NCBI RefSeq assembly: GCF_033547095.1
Contig: NZ_CP137852.1
Coordinates: 4,675,001 to 4,739,000, forward strand
Origin: Sediminicoccus rosea
GTDB taxonomy: Bacteria > Pseudomonadota > Alphaproteobacteria > Acetobacterales > Acetobacteraceae
Direction of reading: 5' to 3'
Length of the DNA: 64,000 nt
Position 1 is the stretch's first letter; every line of letters starts with the position of its first letter. A program made the position numbers and the translations under genes. Shown here in pieces: positions 7,158-33,558 of the stretch. The notes beneath the pieces are model-generated. The model saw only the letters and a program-made list of their open reading frames with translations, had not been told where the DNA came from and ran no database searches.

Positions 7158-10007
7158 ATGCGCCTTATGCTGGACCTCCAGGGGGTGCAGGGGGCGGCGC
7201 GGCATGCGGGCCTGGGCCGCTACAGCCTGGAACTGGCGCGCGCCCTGGTGCGCGGGCGCGGCCAGCACGAGGTGCAGATCCTGCTCAATCTGCGCCTCGC
7301 GGATTCGGCGGCGCGGCTGGCGGCGGAATTCGCCCCGCTGCTTGGGCCGGAGGGGATCCGGCGCTGGACCGCGCCGCCGGGCTGCGCCGCGGGGCAGCAT
7401 CCCCAGGCGTCGCTGCGCCGCCTCGCCGAGCATCTGCGCGCCGAGGCGGTGAGCGCCGCCGCCCCGGACCTGCTGCATCTCGGCTCGGTCTTCGAGGGGC
7501 TGCGGCACGATGTCGTCACCACCTGGCCGGCGGAGCTGGAGCGGCCGCGCATCGCCGCGACCGTGCATGACCTGATCCCGATGACGCTGCGCGAGATGTA
7601 TCTCGACGGGCATTGGCGCGAGGCCGGCCTCGTGCCCTGGTATGCGCGGTGCCTGGACGAACTCGCCGCCTGCGCGCCGCTGCTCGCCAATTCCGAAGCG
7701 ACGCGCGCCGAGGTGCTGCGCCATCTGTCCCTGCCGCCGGAGCGCGTGGTGGTGGTGGGCGGCGGCGCCTCGCCCGGCTTCGCGCCCCCGCCGCCCGACC
7801 CGGTTGCGCGTGAGGCGCTGCTGCGGCGCTACGACCTGGCCGAGGGCTACCTGCTCTACCTGGGGGCCGGGGATTTCCGGAAGAACGAAGGGCTGCTGCT
7901 GCGCGCCTATGCCGCGCTGCCCGAGGGGCTGCGGGCCCGCCACCGCCTGGCGATCGGGCATGTGAACCCGCCGCACCTGCGCGAGATGGCGCGCGGCGCC
8001 GGCGTGGCCGAGGGCGAAATGGTGTGCCTGCCCTTCATCCCGGACCGCGACCTGCCCGGCCTCTATGCGGCGGCGGGCCTCTTCGTCATGCCCTCGCTGG
8101 CCGAGGGCTTCGGCCTGCCGTTGCTGGAGGCGATGGCCTGCGGCGCGCCCTGCATCGCGAGCAACCGTTCCGCCCTGCCCGAGGTGCTGGCCCGCAGCGA
8201 CGCGCTGTTCGACCCGGAGGATGCCGAGGGGCTGACCCGCCTGATGCAGCGCCTGCTGGAAGCGCCCGAGCTGCGCGCCGACCTCGCTGCCTATGGCCCG
8301 CGCCGCGCGCGCGATTTCAGCTGGGACCGCGTAGCGGCGGAGGCCTGGGCCGCCTTCGAGCGCGCCCGCCCCGTGGCGCCGAAGGGCCGGTTGGGGCGCA
8401 AGAAGAGCCTCGCGGTCATCTCCCCCCTGCCGCCGACGCCGAGCGGCATCGCCGACTACACGGCGGAACTCGCCCCCGCGCTGGCCGCGCATTACGCGGT
8501 GACGGTGGTCAGCGCGGTCCGGCCGGAAGGGCCGCTCACCGGGCGCCTGCCCTGGATGAGCGAGGATGATTTCGCCGAACAGGGCGGCCGCTTCGACCGC
8601 GTGCTCTATCACATCGGCAACAACCCGATGCACACGCGCATCCTGCAGGATCTGCTGCCGCGCATCCCGGGTGTGGTCACGCTGCACGAGGCCGCGATCA
8701 CCGACCTGCGCAACTGGCTCGACCGCCGCGCCGATGCGGCCGAGCCGCGGACGACGCGCGTGGTGCGCGAAGAGGGCTACCCCGCGCTCTTCGCCCCCTA
8801 CGAGCTGGCCGGCAGCGCAGGGCCGATGGCCGAGGCGCTCGCCCTCGTGCTGCATTCCGGCCATGCGCGCTGGCTCCTCGAGATGCAATACGGCAATGCC
8901 GCCCTCGCGCACGCCCATGTCCTGCCGCTGATGCGCCAGCCCGTGTTGCTGCCCTCGCGCGAGGCGGCGCGGGCCTCGCTCGGCGTCGCGGAGGAGGAGC
9001 TGATCGTCGCCTCCTTCGGCATCGTCACGCCGCAGAAGCTGCCCGAACGCCTGCTCGCCGGCTTCGCCGCCCTGGCCCGTTCCGTGCCCGCCGCGCGCCT
9101 GGTCTTCGTGGGCGAGGCGCAGGATGGCAGCACGGCCCTCATGGCCGCGGCCGAGCGCCAGGGCCTGGCCGGGCGCGTCAGCGTGGCGGGGCGGGTGCCG
9201 CCCGGCATCTACCAGGCCTGGCTCGCCGCCTGCGACCTCGCGGTGCAATTGCGGCGCGGCAGCCGGGGCGAGACCTCCGCCGCCGCCAAGGATGTGCTGA
9301 TGGCCGGCCGGCCGCTGATCTCCAACCGGCATGGCGCGATGGCGGAGATGGAAGCCTCCGGCTGCCGCCTGATCGGTGAGCCGGCCGAGACCGCCGAACT
9401 CGCCGCCGCCCTGCTCGAGATCGGCCGCGACGCGGCGCTGCGCAGCCAGATGGGCGAAGCCGCCCGGCGCTGGGCGCTGCGGGAGCTGAACCCGGACCGC
9501 GTCGCCGCCGCCTACGCCGCCGTGCTGGAGCACGCCTATGTCCACGGACCGCAGGCCGGGCTCGCGCATCTGCTCGCCATCAGCCGCGACCTGCCGCTCT
9601 CCGCGCGGGATGCGGCCGCGGCGGGGCTGTCCCTGGCCACCACTTTCCCCGGGGTGCGCCAGCCGCGCCTCTGGCTCGACACCGGCCTCGCCGGCCTGGA
9701 GGAGGGCACGCTGACCATGCTGCGCGAGGGCCTGGGCGCGATGCGGCCCGAACCTTGCGCGCAGGCCGGCCAGGGCTGGGTCACCGCGCATGGCTGGGCC
9801 TGGGAGAGGCTAGACCTGCCGGACCAGCCGCCGCCGGAGGGGCCCGCCATCATGGCCCCGGGCGATGCGCTGGTGGCCCCGCCCGGCCTCGCGCGCGACC
9901 TCGCGGCGGCGCAGGGCGTACGCGTGCTGGACGGGCTTCACCCCGGCCTGCAGCGCGGCGAGGGCCCGGCCCAGCGCATGCTGGTGGAGCGGCTGCTCGG
10001 CGCCTAG
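7158..10007 (+). CDS. Double-domain glycosyltransferase (two GT-B/GT4 modules)
   Basis: 949 residues carrying two complete glycosyltransferase modules. Module 1 (about 1-395) has GLGRYSLELARALV, YLLYLGAGDFRKNEGLLL and PSLAEGFGLPLLEAMACG. Module 2 (about 400-775) opens with SPLPPTPSGIADYTAELAP, then shows ASFGIVTPQKLPERLL and a diverged donor site, GETSAAAKDVLMAGRPLIS. The last ~170 residues are not recognised. It directly follows the TPR-glycosyltransferase and probably adds two successive sugars to the same glycan. A dispersed palindromic repeat begins at its stop codon. Confidence 0.87.
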   Translation: MRLMLDLQGVQGAARHAGLGRYSLELARALVRGRGQHEVQILLNLRLADSAARLAAEFAPLLGPEGIRRWTAPPGCAAGQHPQASLRRLAEHLRAEAVSAAAPDLLHLGSVFEGLRHDVVTTWPAELERPRIAATVHDLIPMTLREMYLDGHWREAGLVPWYARCLDELAACAPLLANSEATRAEVLRHLSLPPERVVVVGGGASPGFAPPPPDPVAREALLRRYDLAEGYLLYLGAGDFRKNEGLLLRAYAALPEGLRARHRLAIGHVNPPHLREMARGAGVAEGEMVCLPFIPDRDLPGLYAAAGLFVMPSLAEGFGLPLLEAMACGAPCIASNRSALPEVLARSDALFDPEDAEGLTRLMQRLLEAPELRADLAAYGPRRARDFSWDRVAAEAWAAFERARPVAPKGRLGRKKSLAVISPLPPTPSGIADYTAELAPALAAHYAVTVVSAVRPEGPLTGRLPWMSEDDFAEQGGRFDRVLYHIGNNPMHTRILQDLLPRIPGVVTLHEAAITDLRNWLDRRADAAEPRTTRVVREEGYPALFAPYELAGSAGPMAEALALVLHSGHARWLLEMQYGNAALAHAHVLPLMRQPVLLPSREAARASLGVAEEELIVASFGIVTPQKLPERLLAGFAALARSVPAARLVFVGEAQDGSTALMAAAERQGLAGRVSVAGRVPPGIYQAWLAACDLAVQLRRGSRGETSAAAKDVLMAGRPLISNRHGAMAEMEASGCRLIGEPAETAELAAALLEIGRDAALRSQMGEAARRWALRELNPDRVAAAYAAVLEHAYVHGPQAGLAHLLAISRDLPLSARDAAAAGLSLATTFPGVRQPRLWLDTGLAGLEEGTLTMLREGLGAMRPEPCAQAGQGWVTAHGWAWERLDLPDQPPPEGPAIMAPGDALVAPPGLARDLAAAQGVRVLDGLHPGLQRGEGPAQRMLVERLLGA

Positions 10008-10094
10008 ACCACGCCGCGTTCACGCAGCATGGTCTGGCCTTGGCTGAGAGGATGATTCAGCGTTTCGGCGATGCCGCCTCAACGCATCATGCTC
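10007..10094 (+). repeat. 88-bp dispersed palindromic element, copy A
   Basis: This stretch matches the reverse complement of 24309-24396 at 76 of 88 positions by hand alignment, with no gaps. It holds an imperfect hairpin (GACCACGC/GCATGGTC) and an invariant core (GAGGATGATTCAGCGTTTCGG, described by its two ends) at about 10050-10070. It begins on the last base of the preceding stop codon and fills most of the space before the convergent alpha-2-macroglobulin gene, so it may end transcription from one or both sides. Confidence 0.75.
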
Positions 10095-10106
10095 CCGGGC
10101 GCCGGG

Positions 10107-13100
10107 CTATGGCAGGACGGTGATCCGACCCGCCGCCTGCCGCGCGAAGAAGGCCGGGCGGTACATGTCCGCGACCTCGGCGCCCGGCAGCTCGAACCGC
10201 CCCGCCGTCACCGCCCGCAGCCGCACCGCGAGGCGGAACTCCCGCAGCTCGGGCGAGAAGGTGAAGGCGGCCACGACCCGGTCATCGAGGGCGGGCTGCG
10301 CATCGGCCTCGGGCAATTCGCCCAGGCCGGGCAGGCCGGGCACGGGGCCCGGGCCGAGCCGGGCCTCGACCTCCCAGCCCGCGGGCAGGCCCTGGCTGAT
10401 CATCGACATGTGGTTCTGGCTGGACTCCGCCCGGCCCTCGATCACCATGATGAAGGAGGTGCCAGAGCGCAGCTGGTCGAGGTTCAGCGCCATGCCCTCC
10501 AGGTTGAGGAAGCGGCGGCGGATCTGCATGGCGTTGCGCCCGGCGGGCAAGGCCTCGGCCGGGATGCCGCTGACCGTGAGGCTGACCGGCAGGGGCGCAT
10601 CACCGAGGTTGCGCAGCGTGCCGCCCGCCGTCGCGTTCACGACGCGGCCAGGCGCCGCCGTGCCGTCCAGGCTGGCCCGCACCGGGCGGCCATCGCGGCC
10701 CAGCGTGGCGGCGGCAAGCACCGCCCAGGCCTGCTCCTGCGTCGAGGCCAACGCGGGCGTCAGCTCCGGCCCCGGCAGGCGGCCCAGCGCCGCGCTGAGC
10801 ATCGCGGCCGGCATCCGGCCCTCCTGCGCGAGGACGAGGATCGCCATCGCATCCCGCGCGCCGCTGCCATAGTCGTAGATCCAGTCGCGCCGTGCGGGCG
10901 CGGCGAGCGCGGCGGTGAAGGCACGCGTCGCGCGCTCCGTGTCGCCCGCGCGGGCGAAGGCGGCGCCGAGCTGCGCGCGGGCCAGCGGCGTGGGCAGCCG
11001 GTCCAGGTTCTCCATCAGCCGGCGCGCCGCGCCGAGCCGGTGCCGCCCGGCCAGCGAGAGCGCGCTGAGCCGTGCCGCCTGCGCCGCGTATTCGGCGGGC
11101 TCGGTCGGGTTGGTTTCCTCGAGCCGCTCGGAGAGGCTGACCAGCGCCGCCTCCAGCGCGGCATCCGCGACGGCGGCGCCGGCCGCCTTGGCGCGCAGCA
11201 GCGCCTCCACCGCATAGCCGGAGGTCCAGTATTCCGGCTCGCCCTGGGCGGACCAGAGGCCGAAGCTGCCATCGAAGCGCTGCCGCGCCAGCACGCCATC
11301 CACCGCGCGCTGCAACCGCGCCGCCTGCGCGGGCGTGCTCGCCTCGGTGATCGCGGCGGCGAGGCCGATCGCCTGCGAGGAAAGCTGCTCCAGGCAGGCG
11401 AGCGGGAAGGCCTCCAGCGCGCGCAGCATGCCCTCGGCGTCGTAGCGGACCGGCGTGCCGAGCCGTGCCGTGGCGCGCCAGCCGGGCAGGAAGCGCGCGG
11501 CATCGGGCGCGAGCCGCACCTCCTGCCCCGGCGCGATCTCGATCAGGCTCGCCACCGCCAGCGGCGCGCGGGAGGAGCGCACCTCGATGCGGGCCTCGCG
11601 CGTCGTGGTGAAGCCCTCGGGCCCGGCGATGGCCAGGCGCAGCACGCCCTCGCCCGGGCCGTTCGCACGCAGCGTGGCCGTGGGCTGCGCGCGCGCGCCG
11701 GTGGCGAGGCGCGCGGCGAGGCGCTCCGGGCCGGCCAGGGCGATGGCGCCCTCGGCCGTCAGCGTGGCGCTGACCTCGCCGGCCGGGAGTTCGAGATTGT
11801 GCAGCAGGACCGCAATGCTCGCCTCGTCGCCCGGGGCGAGGAAGCGCGGCAGGATCGCCTCGGCCAGCACGGCGTCGCGCACCAGCAGCGTGCGCGCGGC
11901 GGAACCGACGCGCGCACCGTCCCAGGCGACCGCCATCAGGCGAAGCTCGCCCGCGAAATCCGGGATCTCGAGCGGGATCTCCGCGCGGCCCTGGGCATCG
12001 GTGGTCACCACGCCGCTGAACAGCACAACGTTGCGCTGCGGGATGCGCAGCGCGGCGAGGTCGCCCAGCTCGTCGCCGCCCTGGCGCAGCACGGCGAGCG
12101 TGCCGTCACCGGGGCGGATCAGCCGGCCGTAGTCGTCGCGGATGTCGGTGCCGAGCGTGCGCCGGCCCGCGTAATGCGCGAGCGGATCGGGCGTCGCGAA
12201 GCGCGTCAGGCGCAGGATGCCCTCATCCACCGCGGCGAGCGTGAGATGCACCGGCCCCTGCCCGCCGGTGACGCTCACCGGGATGGTGACGCGGCGCTGC
12301 GGGCGCACGCGCTCCTCGCCGCCGATCGCGACCTCGAGGCGGCGCGCGGCGGGGTCGATCTGCAGCCATGTCAGGCCAAGGGCGCGGCCGGGCGCCTGCG
12401 CCGCCTCACCCTGGCGGAACACCGTCACGGCGGCATAGGCGCCGGCACCCCAGGCGGGGTCGGCCTCCAGCGTCACCTCGGCGCCGGCGGCCGGCACCTC
12501 GATCTCGCGCAGCGCGACCAGACGGTCGGTCAGGATGGCGAGGCTCGCGCGGCCGGCGAAGGGCGCCGTGACGCGCAACGTGATCGGCTGGCCCGGCGCA
12601 TAGGCGCGACGGTCGGCCGCCACATCCACCTTGTCCGGCACCTCGGCCGATTCCGAGGCGGTCCAGCCGGAGCGGAAGCGCACGGAGGCGAGCGCCATGC
12701 CGCCGGCCTCCTGCGCCTCCAGCCGGTAGCGGCCGAAGGGCAGGCTGCGGGCGAAGCGGCCCGGCGCGGTCGCCGTGACGGCGAGGCTCGCCGTGTCCAC
12801 GGGCTCATCGGTCCAGACCGTCTCGTAGCGCGCCTGGCCGGAGCGCAGGACGATGCGCCAATCCGGTCGCTCGCGCACGAGGCGCAGGTTGAGCTGCCCG
12901 GCCTGCGGCTGGCCGGCCGGGTTCACGATGACGAAGTCGAAGGCGGCCTCGCTGTTCGCATCCACCGATTGCGGGCCGCGGATGCCGACGAGGCGCGGCG
13001 CGCCGGCCACGGCCAGCGGCAGTTGCGCGCTGCTGGCGCGGCCGCCCGGCTCCTCCACCTGCAAGGTCAGTTCCGCGCGCAGCGGGCGCGTGGTGTCGGG

Positions 13101-30005: not shown

Positions 30006-31400
30006 TCAGATCGCCTGGGCCGTCACGCCCCGGCGACGCAGCAGCGGCAGCATCACCACCAGCGCCGCCAGCAGCAGCACGATCTCCAGCGCATAGACGC
30101 TGGCATAGCCCAGCATGGCGCCGGTCCCCTTGGGGCCGGCCCAGCTGCTCACCACATCCCGGATTACGCCGCCCAGCGCCATCGCGGCGCCGGCGGCGGT
30201 CGCCTGCACGGCGCCCCAGGCGCCCAGCGCCAAGCCTACCTGGTCGCGGGGCGCGAGGTTCATGGTCGCCGTCAGCGTGCCATGGCTGAACAGCCCGCCC
30301 CCGAAGCCGATCAGCAGCACGCCCAGGCCGAAGAGGACAGGCGCCTGCAGGGGTGCGGCCAGGATCACCAGCGCGAAGCCGGGGATGCCCCAGATCACGC
30401 CGTTGCTGGCCATCCGGAAGGGGTCCGTGCCGCGGCTCAGCACGCGCGAGGCGTAGCTGAAGCCGATCAGGCCGCCCAGGGCGAGGCTCGCGGTCAGCGT
30501 GGTGGTGGCGGAGACGGTGAGGCCCAGGATCTGGCCGCCATAGGGCTCCAGCAGCACGTCCTGCATGGAGAAGGCGGCCGTGCCGAGGCCGAGCGCCGCG
30601 AGGCGGCGCAGCGCCTGCTCGCCCTCGATGAAGCTGCCCCAGGATTCGCGGAAGCTCGGCTCGGGCAGATGGAAGGCGGTGCGCGCGGGGTTGCGCGCCT
30701 CCTGCTTCCACAGCGCGATCGTGTTCAGGACGAGGGTCACCACGGCCGAGGCCTGGATCACCTGGATCAGCTTGCCCGGCGTGAAGTCGGCCAGCAGCGC
30801 GCCGAAGACGATGGCGCTGCCGATCATGCCGACCAGCAGCATCACATACATGAGGCCGACGATCTTGGGCTGAGCCTCGGGCGGTGCCAGGTCCGTCGCC
30901 AGGGCGAGGCCCACCGTCTGCGTGGTGTGCAGCCCCGCGCCGACCATGAGGAAGGCGAGGCCGGCGCCGGCCAGGCCGATCCAGCGCGGCGCATCCATGG
31001 CCTCCCCCTCGCCCGCCAGCACGAGCAGCGCGAAGGGCATGATGGCGAGGCCGCCGAACTGGATCAGCGTGCCCTGCCAGATGAAGGGCACCCGCCGCCA
31101 ACCGAGGAAGGAGCGGTGCGTGTCCGAGCGGAAGCCGATCAGCGCGCGGAAGGGCGCGAAGACCAGCGGCAGCGAGAGCATGATGGCGACAAGCGAGGCC
31201 GGGACCGCGAGTTCCACGATCATCACGCGGTTCAGCGTGCCGATCAGCAGCACCATCGCCATGCCGACCGAGACCTGGAAGAGCGAAAGCCGCAGCAGGC
31301 GCGAGAGCGGCATCTCGGGCGTGGCGGCGTCGGCGAAGGGCAGGAAGCGCGGGCCGAGCCGCGCCCAGCCTTCGATCACCTTGCGCGAGAGCGGGTTCAT
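30006..31400 (-). CDS. pucC: Light-harvesting complex assembly protein PucC
   Basis: 464 residues with about 12 membrane segments, a member of the PucC/LhaA/BchP-associated MFS branch. Signatures are FRALIGFRSDTHRSFLGWRR, PFIWQGTLIQFGG and MQDVLLEPYGGQILGL, all conserved in this bacteriochlorophyll-related family. PucC is needed for full levels of the peripheral antenna, probably by guiding or shielding the alpha/beta peptides during assembly. It lies 94 bases downstream of pucA on the same strand, with a hairpin between them. The position directly after pucBA favours PucC over LhaA. Confidence 0.93.
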   Translation of the reverse strand: MNPLSRKVIEGWARLGPRFLPFADAATPEMPLSRLLRLSLFQVSVGMAMVLLIGTLNRVMIVELAVPASLVAIMLSLPLVFAPFRALIGFRSDTHRSFLGWRRVPFIWQGTLIQFGGLAIMPFALLVLAGEGEAMDAPRWIGLAGAGLAFLMVGAGLHTTQTVGLALATDLAPPEAQPKIVGLMYVMLLVGMIGSAIVFGALLADFTPGKLIQVIQASAVVTLVLNTIALWKQEARNPARTAFHLPEPSFRESWGSFIEGEQALRRLAALGLGTAAFSMQDVLLEPYGGQILGLTVSATTTLTASLALGGLIGFSYASRVLSRGTDPFRMASNGVIWGIPGFALVILAAPLQAPVLFGLGVLLIGFGGGLFSHGTLTATMNLAPRDQVGLALGAWGAVQATAAGAAMALGGVIRDVVSSWAGPKGTGAMLGYASVYALEIVLLLAALVVMLPLLRRRGVTAQAI

Positions 31401-31494: not shown

Positions 31495-31737
31495 CTATTT
31501 CACCGCGAGCGAGGCGAACTCGGCCGGTGTTCCCGGCTTTGCCAGCGCGACGGCGGGGGCGTTCCCGTCATTCAGGCTCGCCGCGGCGCGCGGCTTGCCC
31601 TGCAGGAAGGCGGGGAACCAGGTGGTGTTGGCCAGGATCGCCGTGTGCACGGCGAGCGAGGCGACCACCACGCCGCCCAGCATCAGGGGGATGCCGACGG
31701 TGGGCTTCACCACCAGCCACATCTTGCCATTGATCAT
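31495..31737 (-). CDS. pucA: Peripheral antenna alpha peptide PucA with LH3-type residues and a long tail
   Basis: 80 residues. The first ~47 align without gaps to LH2 alpha peptides: NGKMWLVVKPTVGIP at the cytoplasmic side, one membrane helix, the bacteriochlorophyll ligand His31 (SLAVHTAIL) and TTWFPAFLQG at the periplasmic side. Positions 44-45 are Phe-Leu, as in B800-820 (LH3) complexes, not Tyr-Trp or Tyr-Tyr as in B800-850. An Ala/Pro-rich tail of about 33 residues follows; known alpha peptides stop near residue 53-60. The GGAGGAGG ribosome site starts on the last base of the pucB stop codon. Confidence 0.95.
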   Translation of the reverse strand: MINGKMWLVVKPTVGIPLMLGGVVVASLAVHTAILANTTWFPAFLQGKPRAAASLNDGNAPAVALAKPGTPAEFASLAVK

Positions 31738-31749
31738 GGGGGCCTCCTC

Positions 31750-31902
31750 CTACTTGAGCCAGGGGGAGAGGGTGTAGGCGAGGAAATGCGCGCAGGCGGC
31801 GATGAAGCCGAATGTGCGCGTCCCGCTGATCAGGTAGCGGTGGAGTTCTTCCGCCTCCCCGACGGTCAGGCCGGTCGGCCAGACCTTGCTTTCGTCAGAC
31901 AT
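31750..31902 (-). CDS. pucB: Peripheral antenna beta peptide PucB
   Basis: 50 residues, the usual size. It starts MSDESKVWPTGLTVGEAEEL, has His21 near the B800 pigment region, one membrane helix and the bacteriochlorophyll ligand His39 in ACAHFLAY, and ends SPWLK. It pairs with PucA to build the ring-shaped peripheral antenna in the intracytoplasmic membrane. An AGGAGGG ribosome site lies nine bases before the ATG. It is the first gene of pucBAC, and its reading was made directly from the minus strand. Confidence 0.95.
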   Translation of the reverse strand: MSDESKVWPTGLTVGEAEELHRYLISGTRTFGFIAACAHFLAYTLSPWLK

Positions 31903-32126: not shown

Positions 32127-32144
32127 TGTCAATCTAGATTGACA
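32127..32144. promoter_or_regulatory. PpsR/CrtJ-type operator 1 upstream of pucB
   Basis: TGTCAATCTAGATTGACA is a perfect 18-base palindrome matching TGT-N12-ACA, the binding site of the redox- and light-responsive repressor PpsR/CrtJ that controls photosynthesis genes. It contains a -35-like TTGACA on the minus strand. It lies 225 bases before pucB. The 31903-32126 leader between operator and gene has no reading frame of note, only short GC-rich inverted repeats, and ends in the pucB ribosome site. Confidence 0.8.
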
Positions 32145-32151
32145 AATCAAC

Positions 32152-32169
32152 TGTCAATTTGATTGGACA
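32152..32169. promoter_or_regulatory. PpsR/CrtJ-type operator 2 upstream of pucB
   Basis: TGTCAATTTGATTGGACA also fits TGT-N12-ACA, with an imperfect inner palindrome. It is separated from operator 1 by seven bases, so the centres are 25 bases apart. PpsR/CrtJ binds such closely spaced pairs cooperatively in other phototrophs. No clear -10 element can be chosen for the minus strand. Confidence 0.75.
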
Positions 32170-32958: not shown

Positions 32959-33044
32959 GCGGTCGTGGTGGAATGGTAGACACGCCAGCTTGAGGTGCTG
33001 GTGGGGGAAACCCCTTGGAAGTTCGAATCTTCTCGACCGCACCA
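32959..33044 (+). tRNA. tRNA-Leu (anticodon GAG)
   Basis: 86 bases including an encoded CCA end. The acceptor arms are GCGGTCG and CGACCGC. The anticodon stem CCAGC/GCTGG encloses the loop TTGAGGT, giving GAG, which reads CUC and CUU. A long variable arm (GGGG AAA CCCC) confirms the leucine class II type. The T-loop is TTCGAAT. A 119-bp tandem repeat array begins 16 bases after its 3' end. There is no integrase gene or repeated tRNA tail, so it does not look like an integration site. Confidence 0.96.
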
Positions 33045-33060
33045 TATTCTTACCCTCAGA

Positions 33061-33558
33061 CGCCGGGCGCCCACTCCGTGGGCTTGGCTTCGCCGCGCCA
33101 CGGGCCTCCCCGACATCGCAGGCCATTGGGCGGCGCCGGCCGCCATGCGGCCGGATGCACGCCCTCTTAGACCCCCGGACGCCGGGCGCCCACTCCGTGG
33201 GCTTGGCTTCGCCGCGCCACGGGCCTCCCCGACATCGCAGGCCATTGGGCGGCGCCGGCCGCCATGCGGCCGGATGCACGCCCTCTTAGACCCCCGGACG
33301 CCGGGCGCCCACTCCGTGGGCTTGGCTTCGCCGCGCCACGGGCCTCCCCGACATCGCAGGCCATTGGGCGGCGCCGGCCGCCATGCGGCCGGATGCACGC
33401 CCTCATAGACCCCCGGACGCCGGGCGCCCACTCCGTGGGCTTGGCTTCGCCGCGCCACGGGCCTCCCCGACATCGCAGGCCATTGGGCGGCGCAGGCCGC
33501 CATGCGGCCGGATGCACGCCCTCTTAGACCCCCGGACGCCGGCCGCCCACTCCGTGGG
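33061..33558. repeat. 119-bp tandem repeat array, 4.2 copies
   Basis: Four full units start at 33061, 33180, 33299 and 33418, and a partial fifth runs from 33537 to about 33558. Units 1 and 2 are identical; units 3 and 4 each differ by about one base. Each unit can fold into several hairpins, the best being CCGGCCGC/GCGGCCGG with a CAT loop; others are CCCAC/GTGGG, GGCCT/AGGCC and CCCGG/CCGGG. As 119 is not a multiple of three, the open frames through the array shift at each unit and are unlikely to be genes. The array fills most of the 585-base gap between tRNA-Leu and maeB. Confidence 0.93.

Follow-up and report, generated by a model that had tools for sequence, protein, structure and literature searches.

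The only puc operon of Sediminicoccus rosea probably encodes a blue-shifted LH2-type antenna

Introduction

Residues 44 and 45 of the LH2 alpha polypeptide are the usual hydrogen-bond donors to the C3-acetyl groups of the B850 bacteriochlorophylls, and a comparison of nine LH2 structures relates the number of these bonds to the position of the band: about 850 nm with two bonds, about 825 nm with one and about 800 nm with none (PMC9618040). In the LH3 complex of Rbl. acidophilus 7050 neither residue 44 nor residue 45 donates a bond any longer, and one is supplied by Tyr41 (PMC9618040). An R. sphaeroides LH2 mutant with Phe44 and Leu45 has its band at 826 nm and still forms the bond from Ser27 to a C13-1 keto group of B850.

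In aerobic phototrophs, LH2 mostly deviates from the 800/850 nm pattern (PMC12654162). The F44L45 motif and one peak at 800-806 nm characterize the antennas of LH4 type in Roseobacter, Dinoroseobacter, Rubrimonas and others, and the LH4 of aerobic phototrophs is constitutive and their only peripheral antenna (PMC12654162); the obligate aerobe Pseudohaliea rubra absorbs at 804/821 nm. Two further organisms bear on the present case. Cells of Sediminicoccus sp. KRV36, which has a single chromosome of 4.91 Mb (PMC10949492), absorb at 871 and 798 nm, the latter peak being assigned to LH2 by its authors; its puc genes are among the most expressed, and a sucrose gradient showed only RC-LH1 and a free carotenoid band. 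The LH1 of Roseococcus thiosulfatophilus, a possible member of the GTDB genus discussed below, absorbs at 856 nm.

The puc operon and its genomic setting

The window analysed here, the whole 64,000-nucleotide stretch of the Sediminicoccus rosea chromosome (NZ_CP137852.1, positions 4,675,001 to 4,739,000), contains three genes in the order pucBAC, all on the minus strand. The first, pucB (31750..31902), is an open reading frame for an LH2 beta apoprotein of 50 amino acids that matches the Pfam antenna family; it has both His residues and the LH2-beta TR motif, with a Tyr four residues past the B850-ligand His, and its N-terminus resembles that of R. sphaeroides LH2 beta. Between pucB and pucC lies pucA (31495..31737), identified as an open reading frame, by alignments and by Pfam (LHC family, 44.7 bits, the cut-off being 23); it starts with an ATG preceded by AGGAGG and encodes an LH2 alpha apoprotein of 80 amino acids. 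The third gene, pucC (30006..31400; Pfam PUCC, 516.6 bits), encodes a major-facilitator-type protein for LH2 assembly. The operon is thus of the LH2 type, with adjacent pucB and pucA genes for single-helix peptides of the LHC family that carry the bacteriochlorophyll-ligand His, with pucC downstream, and with puc at a distance of about 2.16 Mb from puf.

Upstream of the pucB start, at 225-242 bp, stands a palindrome of the PpsR/CrtJ type, TGTCAATCTAGATTGACA (32127..32144), with a second one, TGTCAATTTGATTGGACA (32152..32169), 25 bp from the first. These are the only two sites of the form TGTC-N10-GACA within the 64 kb, for which 0.49 are expected, and a spaced palindrome pair is found ahead of pucB in three other genomes of the genus as well (G008, G015a and G012, the last with the form TGT-N12-ACA). 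Such tandem palindromes fit PpsR/CrtJ operators, and PpsR would be predicted to bind them.

The host chromosome, of 5.12 Mb, has one pucBA, one pufBA and one pufLM, and a search of the whole genome revealed no further antenna gene pair beyond the first two, in agreement with the initial annotation, which had supposed that the puc pair might be the only one. A photosynthesis cluster at about 2.51-2.55 Mb includes PpsR, PufC and BchE, recognized by curated models, and a B12-domain protein that adjoins ppsR and resembles PpaA/AerR. Judging by eye, we take other open reading frames of the cluster to be BchB/N/H/L-like and PuhA-like, and one that matches the Rubrerythrin model to be an AcsF-like di-iron oxygenase; the anaerobic cyclase BchE and this AcsF-like oxygen-dependent cyclase occur together in the cluster (G000:C1 near 2531700-2532830; L114:9636-11249). 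The host is apparently an aerobic phototroph. Its nearest named relatives are MAGs of Acetobacteraceae and Roseococcus sp. SDR, assigned to the same genus, which bears out the affiliation with Acetobacteraceae first proposed from the letters of the DNA. Elsewhere in the window, directly after a tRNA-Leu(gag) gene (32959-33044), we noted a tandem array of a 119-bp unit (33052-33558; 4.3 copies, 98% matches), a spot at which BLAST matches vary among congeners.

Residues of PucA and the predicted absorption

A multiple alignment places the first 48-55 residues of PucA without gaps against the alpha chains of R. sphaeroides (7pbw) and of Rbl. acidophilus LH2 (1kzu) and LH3 (1ijd), with His31 (codon 31645-31647, minus strand, like all the codons below) invariant. 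The best solved-structure matches are LH2 alpha chains, the five alignments listed being gapless through residue 47; identity to wild-type R. sphaeroides LH2 alpha is 57% over 55 columns, and the N-terminus, beginning with Met1, fits the 9-fold LH2 types without gaps. A C-terminal extension of about 30 residues follows. The ungapped alignment and the ligand His31 described in the initial annotation are therefore confirmed, and so is its reading of residues 44 and 45 (31603..31608) as Phe (TTC, 31606-31608) and Leu (CTG, 31603-31605). Two more residues matter for what follows, Phe41 (TTC, 31615..31617) and Ser27 (TCG, 31657..31659).

The pucBAC operon would encode an ordinary ring-type LH2 peripheral antenna with a blue-shifted B850 ring. 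Phe44 and Leu45 would offer no hydrogen bond to the C3-acetyls of the coupled bacteriochlorophyll pair, which would shift B850 to the blue; the loss of both donors and the resulting blue shift, already proposed in the initial annotation, are supported as predictions from the sequence. Retention of the bacteriochlorophyll ligands and of the B800 site leads one to expect B800 together with a shifted band somewhere between about 800 and 830 nm. The shifted band would most likely lie at 815-830 nm, a range to which we give most weight since the R. sphaeroides F44/L45 mutant is the nearest tested case, and would less likely be merged with B800 near 800-806 nm. As the sole peripheral antenna, presumably made under PpsR control, the complex would pass energy downhill to LH1. 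We consider it probable, with good though not full confidence, that the operon specifies such a blue-shifted LH2, with a band at about 800-830 nm, acting as the only, PpsR-controlled antenna that feeds LH1; its spectrum, assembly and energy flow are deduced here from the genes. The ungapped match to solved LH2 alpha chains, the retained histidines of PucA and PucB, the 826 nm band of the R. sphaeroides mutant, the B-800/820 chain 9dwz (see below) and the 819 nm band of the single-puc Rhodoferax antarcticus speak for this reading, as do the PpsR gene and the photosynthesis cluster in the genome. Against it, other residues or contacts of the beta chain can supply hydrogen bonds, as in M. purpuratum and Phs. 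molischianum, where a bond is supplied through a beta Trp, and the beta chain of the window has the Tyr near the B850-ligand His noted above.

The initial annotation had gone further and likened PucA to the low-light LH3 antennas, and PucA does have Phe44-Leu45, identical to that of 1ijd, in place of Tyr44-Trp45. A strict B800-820 complex, which like that of Rbl. acidophilus 7050 would retain a single C3-acetyl hydrogen bond, is nevertheless unlikely, since that remaining bond comes from Tyr41 and residue 41 is Phe here; the combination Tyr41-Phe44-Leu45 does occur in three other Acetobacteraceae (G101, G125 and G213), which are three of the 11 genomes of the family with F44-L45. An LH3-like band without Tyr41 is possible, as the 826 nm of the R. 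sphaeroides mutant indicates. A solved chain labelled B-800/820 (9dwz), which reads TTWFPAFQQG, one residue off the TTWFPAFLQG of PucA, has Phe41 and Phe44 and suggests by analogy that Phe41 is compatible with 820 nm, but its Gln45 might donate a bond. The LH3 label is thus not borne out, and neither is the low-light form: low-light antenna switching, in which LH3 replaces a B800-850 form, is a trait of species with several puc copies, and regulation of this sort is inapplicable to a genome with a single puc pair and no second form to switch to.

A somewhat better, though still tentative, alternative is an LH4-like complex, which would lack both C3-acetyl bonds and show only one peak, at about 800-806 nm, from the merging of B800 with the shifted band, as in Roseobacter and in R. 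palustris PucD. F44L45 is the motif given for the LH4 of aerobic phototrophs, and there, as in the present genome, the complex is the exclusive peripheral antenna (PMC12654162); the structure of R. palustris PucD, devoid of C3-acetyl bonds, absorbs at 803 nm (PMC9618040); and PucA, with Phe41, offers no obvious donor. PucD, the only LH4 chain compared, nonetheless has Val27, Val41 and Met45, whereas PucA shares Ser27 with the 826 nm mutant of R. sphaeroides. The PucA proteins of the measured LH4 species (Roseobacter, Dinoroseobacter) were not found on the plasmid records searched. Since F44L45 is present both in LH4 of about 800-806 nm and in the 826 nm mutant, the pair is no guide to whether a complex absorbs at 820 or at 800 nm; the sequence of PucA supports a blue shift without fixing its size, and the common shortcut of reading the class of the complex from residues 44-45 alone is to be corrected.

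Distribution of the Phe44-Leu45 pair

Among 21 genomes of the genus, the host genome (G000) included, reaction-centre genes are present in 14 and a full-length PucA in six, several congeners with reaction-centre genes having no pucA; a seventh match (G005, E 0.0014) was judged not to be PucA on reading its sequence, and a pufL-like match in another genome (G003:C1:313210-313940) is split over two frames, by a possible frameshift or sequencing error. The string TTWFPAFLQGK is exactly kept in six PucA copies from five genomes (G000, G008, G009, G014 and two copies in G015). The two copies of G015, a MAG, come from two puc loci (L120 and L121; 96% and 86% identical to the PucA of the window), which may represent two strains, given 7% contamination. 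The puc locus is syntenic in the genus, and we take its neighbours, named by eye, to be a DEAD-box helicase gene on one side and lipB, tRNA-Leu and a malic-enzyme-like gene on the other. Third codon positions and silent sites differ around the kept motif, and dN/dS for pucA is 0.13-0.34 in pairs with the host genome. The Phe44-Leu45 motif is therefore more than chance, as five further copies in the genus keep it despite silent changes and a low dN/dS.

With dN/dS well below 1 in pucB, pucA and pucC alike, the operon is under purifying selection. This, together with the conserved operator-like pairs and the place of puc among the most strongly transcribed genes of KRV36, argues against the possibility that an intact operon yields little or no assembled LH2, so that the change at 44-45 would be spectrally inconsequential in cells. 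That possibility draws on the KRV36 gradient, with its RC-LH1 and carotenoid bands only, on the small peak at 798 nm and on the congeners that dispense with pucA; we regard it as improbable, more so than a strict LH3, even if the gradient hints, by analogy, that members of the genus may make little LH2 despite transcribing its genes.

Turning to the family, 31 genomes in a sample of 397 Acetobacteraceae gave a PucA match, which was judged spurious in two (G156 and G217). In the best copy of each of the remaining 29 genomes, residues 44-45 are Phe-Leu in 11, Tyr-Trp in 10, Tyr-Tyr in three, Phe-Phe and Phe-Tyr in two each and Phe-Trp in one; a second PucA copy in G271 has Phe-Trp. F44-L45 is found, too, in Beijerinckiaceae and other MAGs. 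Two loci of the family (L032 and L035) have two pucB-like genes ahead of pucA, and the pucA of L035 has the full LH3 signature, Tyr41-Phe44-Leu45. An antenna of this composition had been expected to be unusual for an aerobic phototroph; the review cited above, P. rubra and the 11 of 29 puc-bearing Acetobacteraceae tell otherwise, and the pucBA of the window is an Acetobacteraceae example of an already known class, the blue-shifted LH2 of aerobic phototrophs.

A Tyr44-Trp45 antenna at the same locus in a congener

What is new is that one congener, G012, which we infer to be Sediminicoccus sp. KRV36, has Tyr44-Trp45 at the same syntenic locus. Its PucA reads TTWFAAYWQGK and has Ala27 (locus L116, G012:C1:3920501-3940500; pucBA at about 9850-10300 within L116). 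A PucC tree places G012 inside the genus (support 100/99) and shows F44-L45 also in the sister group of the genus (94/87, below the 95/80 mark), so the pair was probably ancestral in the genus, judging from this tree. Between the host and G012, pucBA has a dS of 0.77 and a dN of 0.23; the values for pucC are 0.41 and 0.06, and dS is 0.36-0.48 in the flanking genes. When pucC codons were resampled 200 times, dS never rose as high as that of pucBA. As pucBA is about twice as divergent as pucC at silent sites, these values suggest that the pucBA cassette was replaced in G012 from a donor outside the sampled genomes. A similar swap of pufBA in G012 is not clear (dS 0.57-0.59 for pufA/pufB, 0.35 for pufL). 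The KRV36 spectrum is no test of what Tyr44-Trp45 predicts, because the 871 nm band could mask one at 850 nm.

The LH1 alpha chain of the genus has a long loop, SPRYCDHxGW, in which G012 has Trp at x and every other phototrophic member read has Leu. Loops of the type SPRYCDH(L/V/W)G(W/F) are seen in part of the family (L131, L133 and other LH1 loci), and the LH1 beta of the genus reads RPL where RPW is usual; the long loop and RPL may be connected with the reports of LH1 at 854-856 nm in some of these genera. It is conceivable, but in our estimate doubtful, that LH1 and LH2 were retuned together, F44-L45 going with CDH-Leu-GW (possibly about 856 nm) in most members, and a recombined-in Tyr44-Trp45 pucBA with CDH-Trp-GW and an LH1 at 871 nm in G012, which would preserve the step in energy between LH2 and LH1. 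Joint retuning is possible in the G012 line, which is one lineage only. A general rule linking F44-L45 to the long LH1 loop was rejected, as five genomes (G119, G271, G101, G125 and G160) pair F44-L45 with a standard NW-type LH1 alpha. The genus offers a natural experiment, with one syntenic locus, F44-L45 in most LH2-bearing members, Tyr44-Trp45 in one and close genetic backgrounds, and this contrast bears both on the natural effect of the 44-45 pair and on how LH1 and LH2 energies evolve together.

Comparison with known systems

The R. sphaeroides Tyr44Phe/Tyr45Leu mutant (B800-826) shares both F44-L45 and Ser27 with the PucA of the window, but it is engineered and its residue 41 is Leu rather than Phe. 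The LH3 of Rbl. acidophilus 7050 (1ijd) has F44-L45 and the gapless alignment in common with PucA; it differs in the Tyr41 donor, in Ala27 and in being a low-light form that replaces LH2, as opposed to Phe41, Ser27 and one puc pair here. With the LH4 or high-800 LH2 of aerobic phototrophs the present antenna shares F44L45 and the role of sole peripheral antenna, its own peak being a prediction, while R. palustris PucD departs from it at positions 27, 41 and 45. A single puc operon of a blue-shifted (LH3-type) antenna, absorbing at 819 nm, is known from Rhodoferax antarcticus; puc is likewise the only one here, but that species is a purple nonsulfur bacterium with F44-F45 and with puc inside the photosynthesis cluster. 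A further system is that of KRV36 (taken as G012), a member of the same genus with the same syntenic single puc locus and PpsR-type sites, which differs by Tyr44-Trp45 and Ala27 and, in the CDH loop of LH1 alpha, by Trp13 (counted from His0) instead of Leu.
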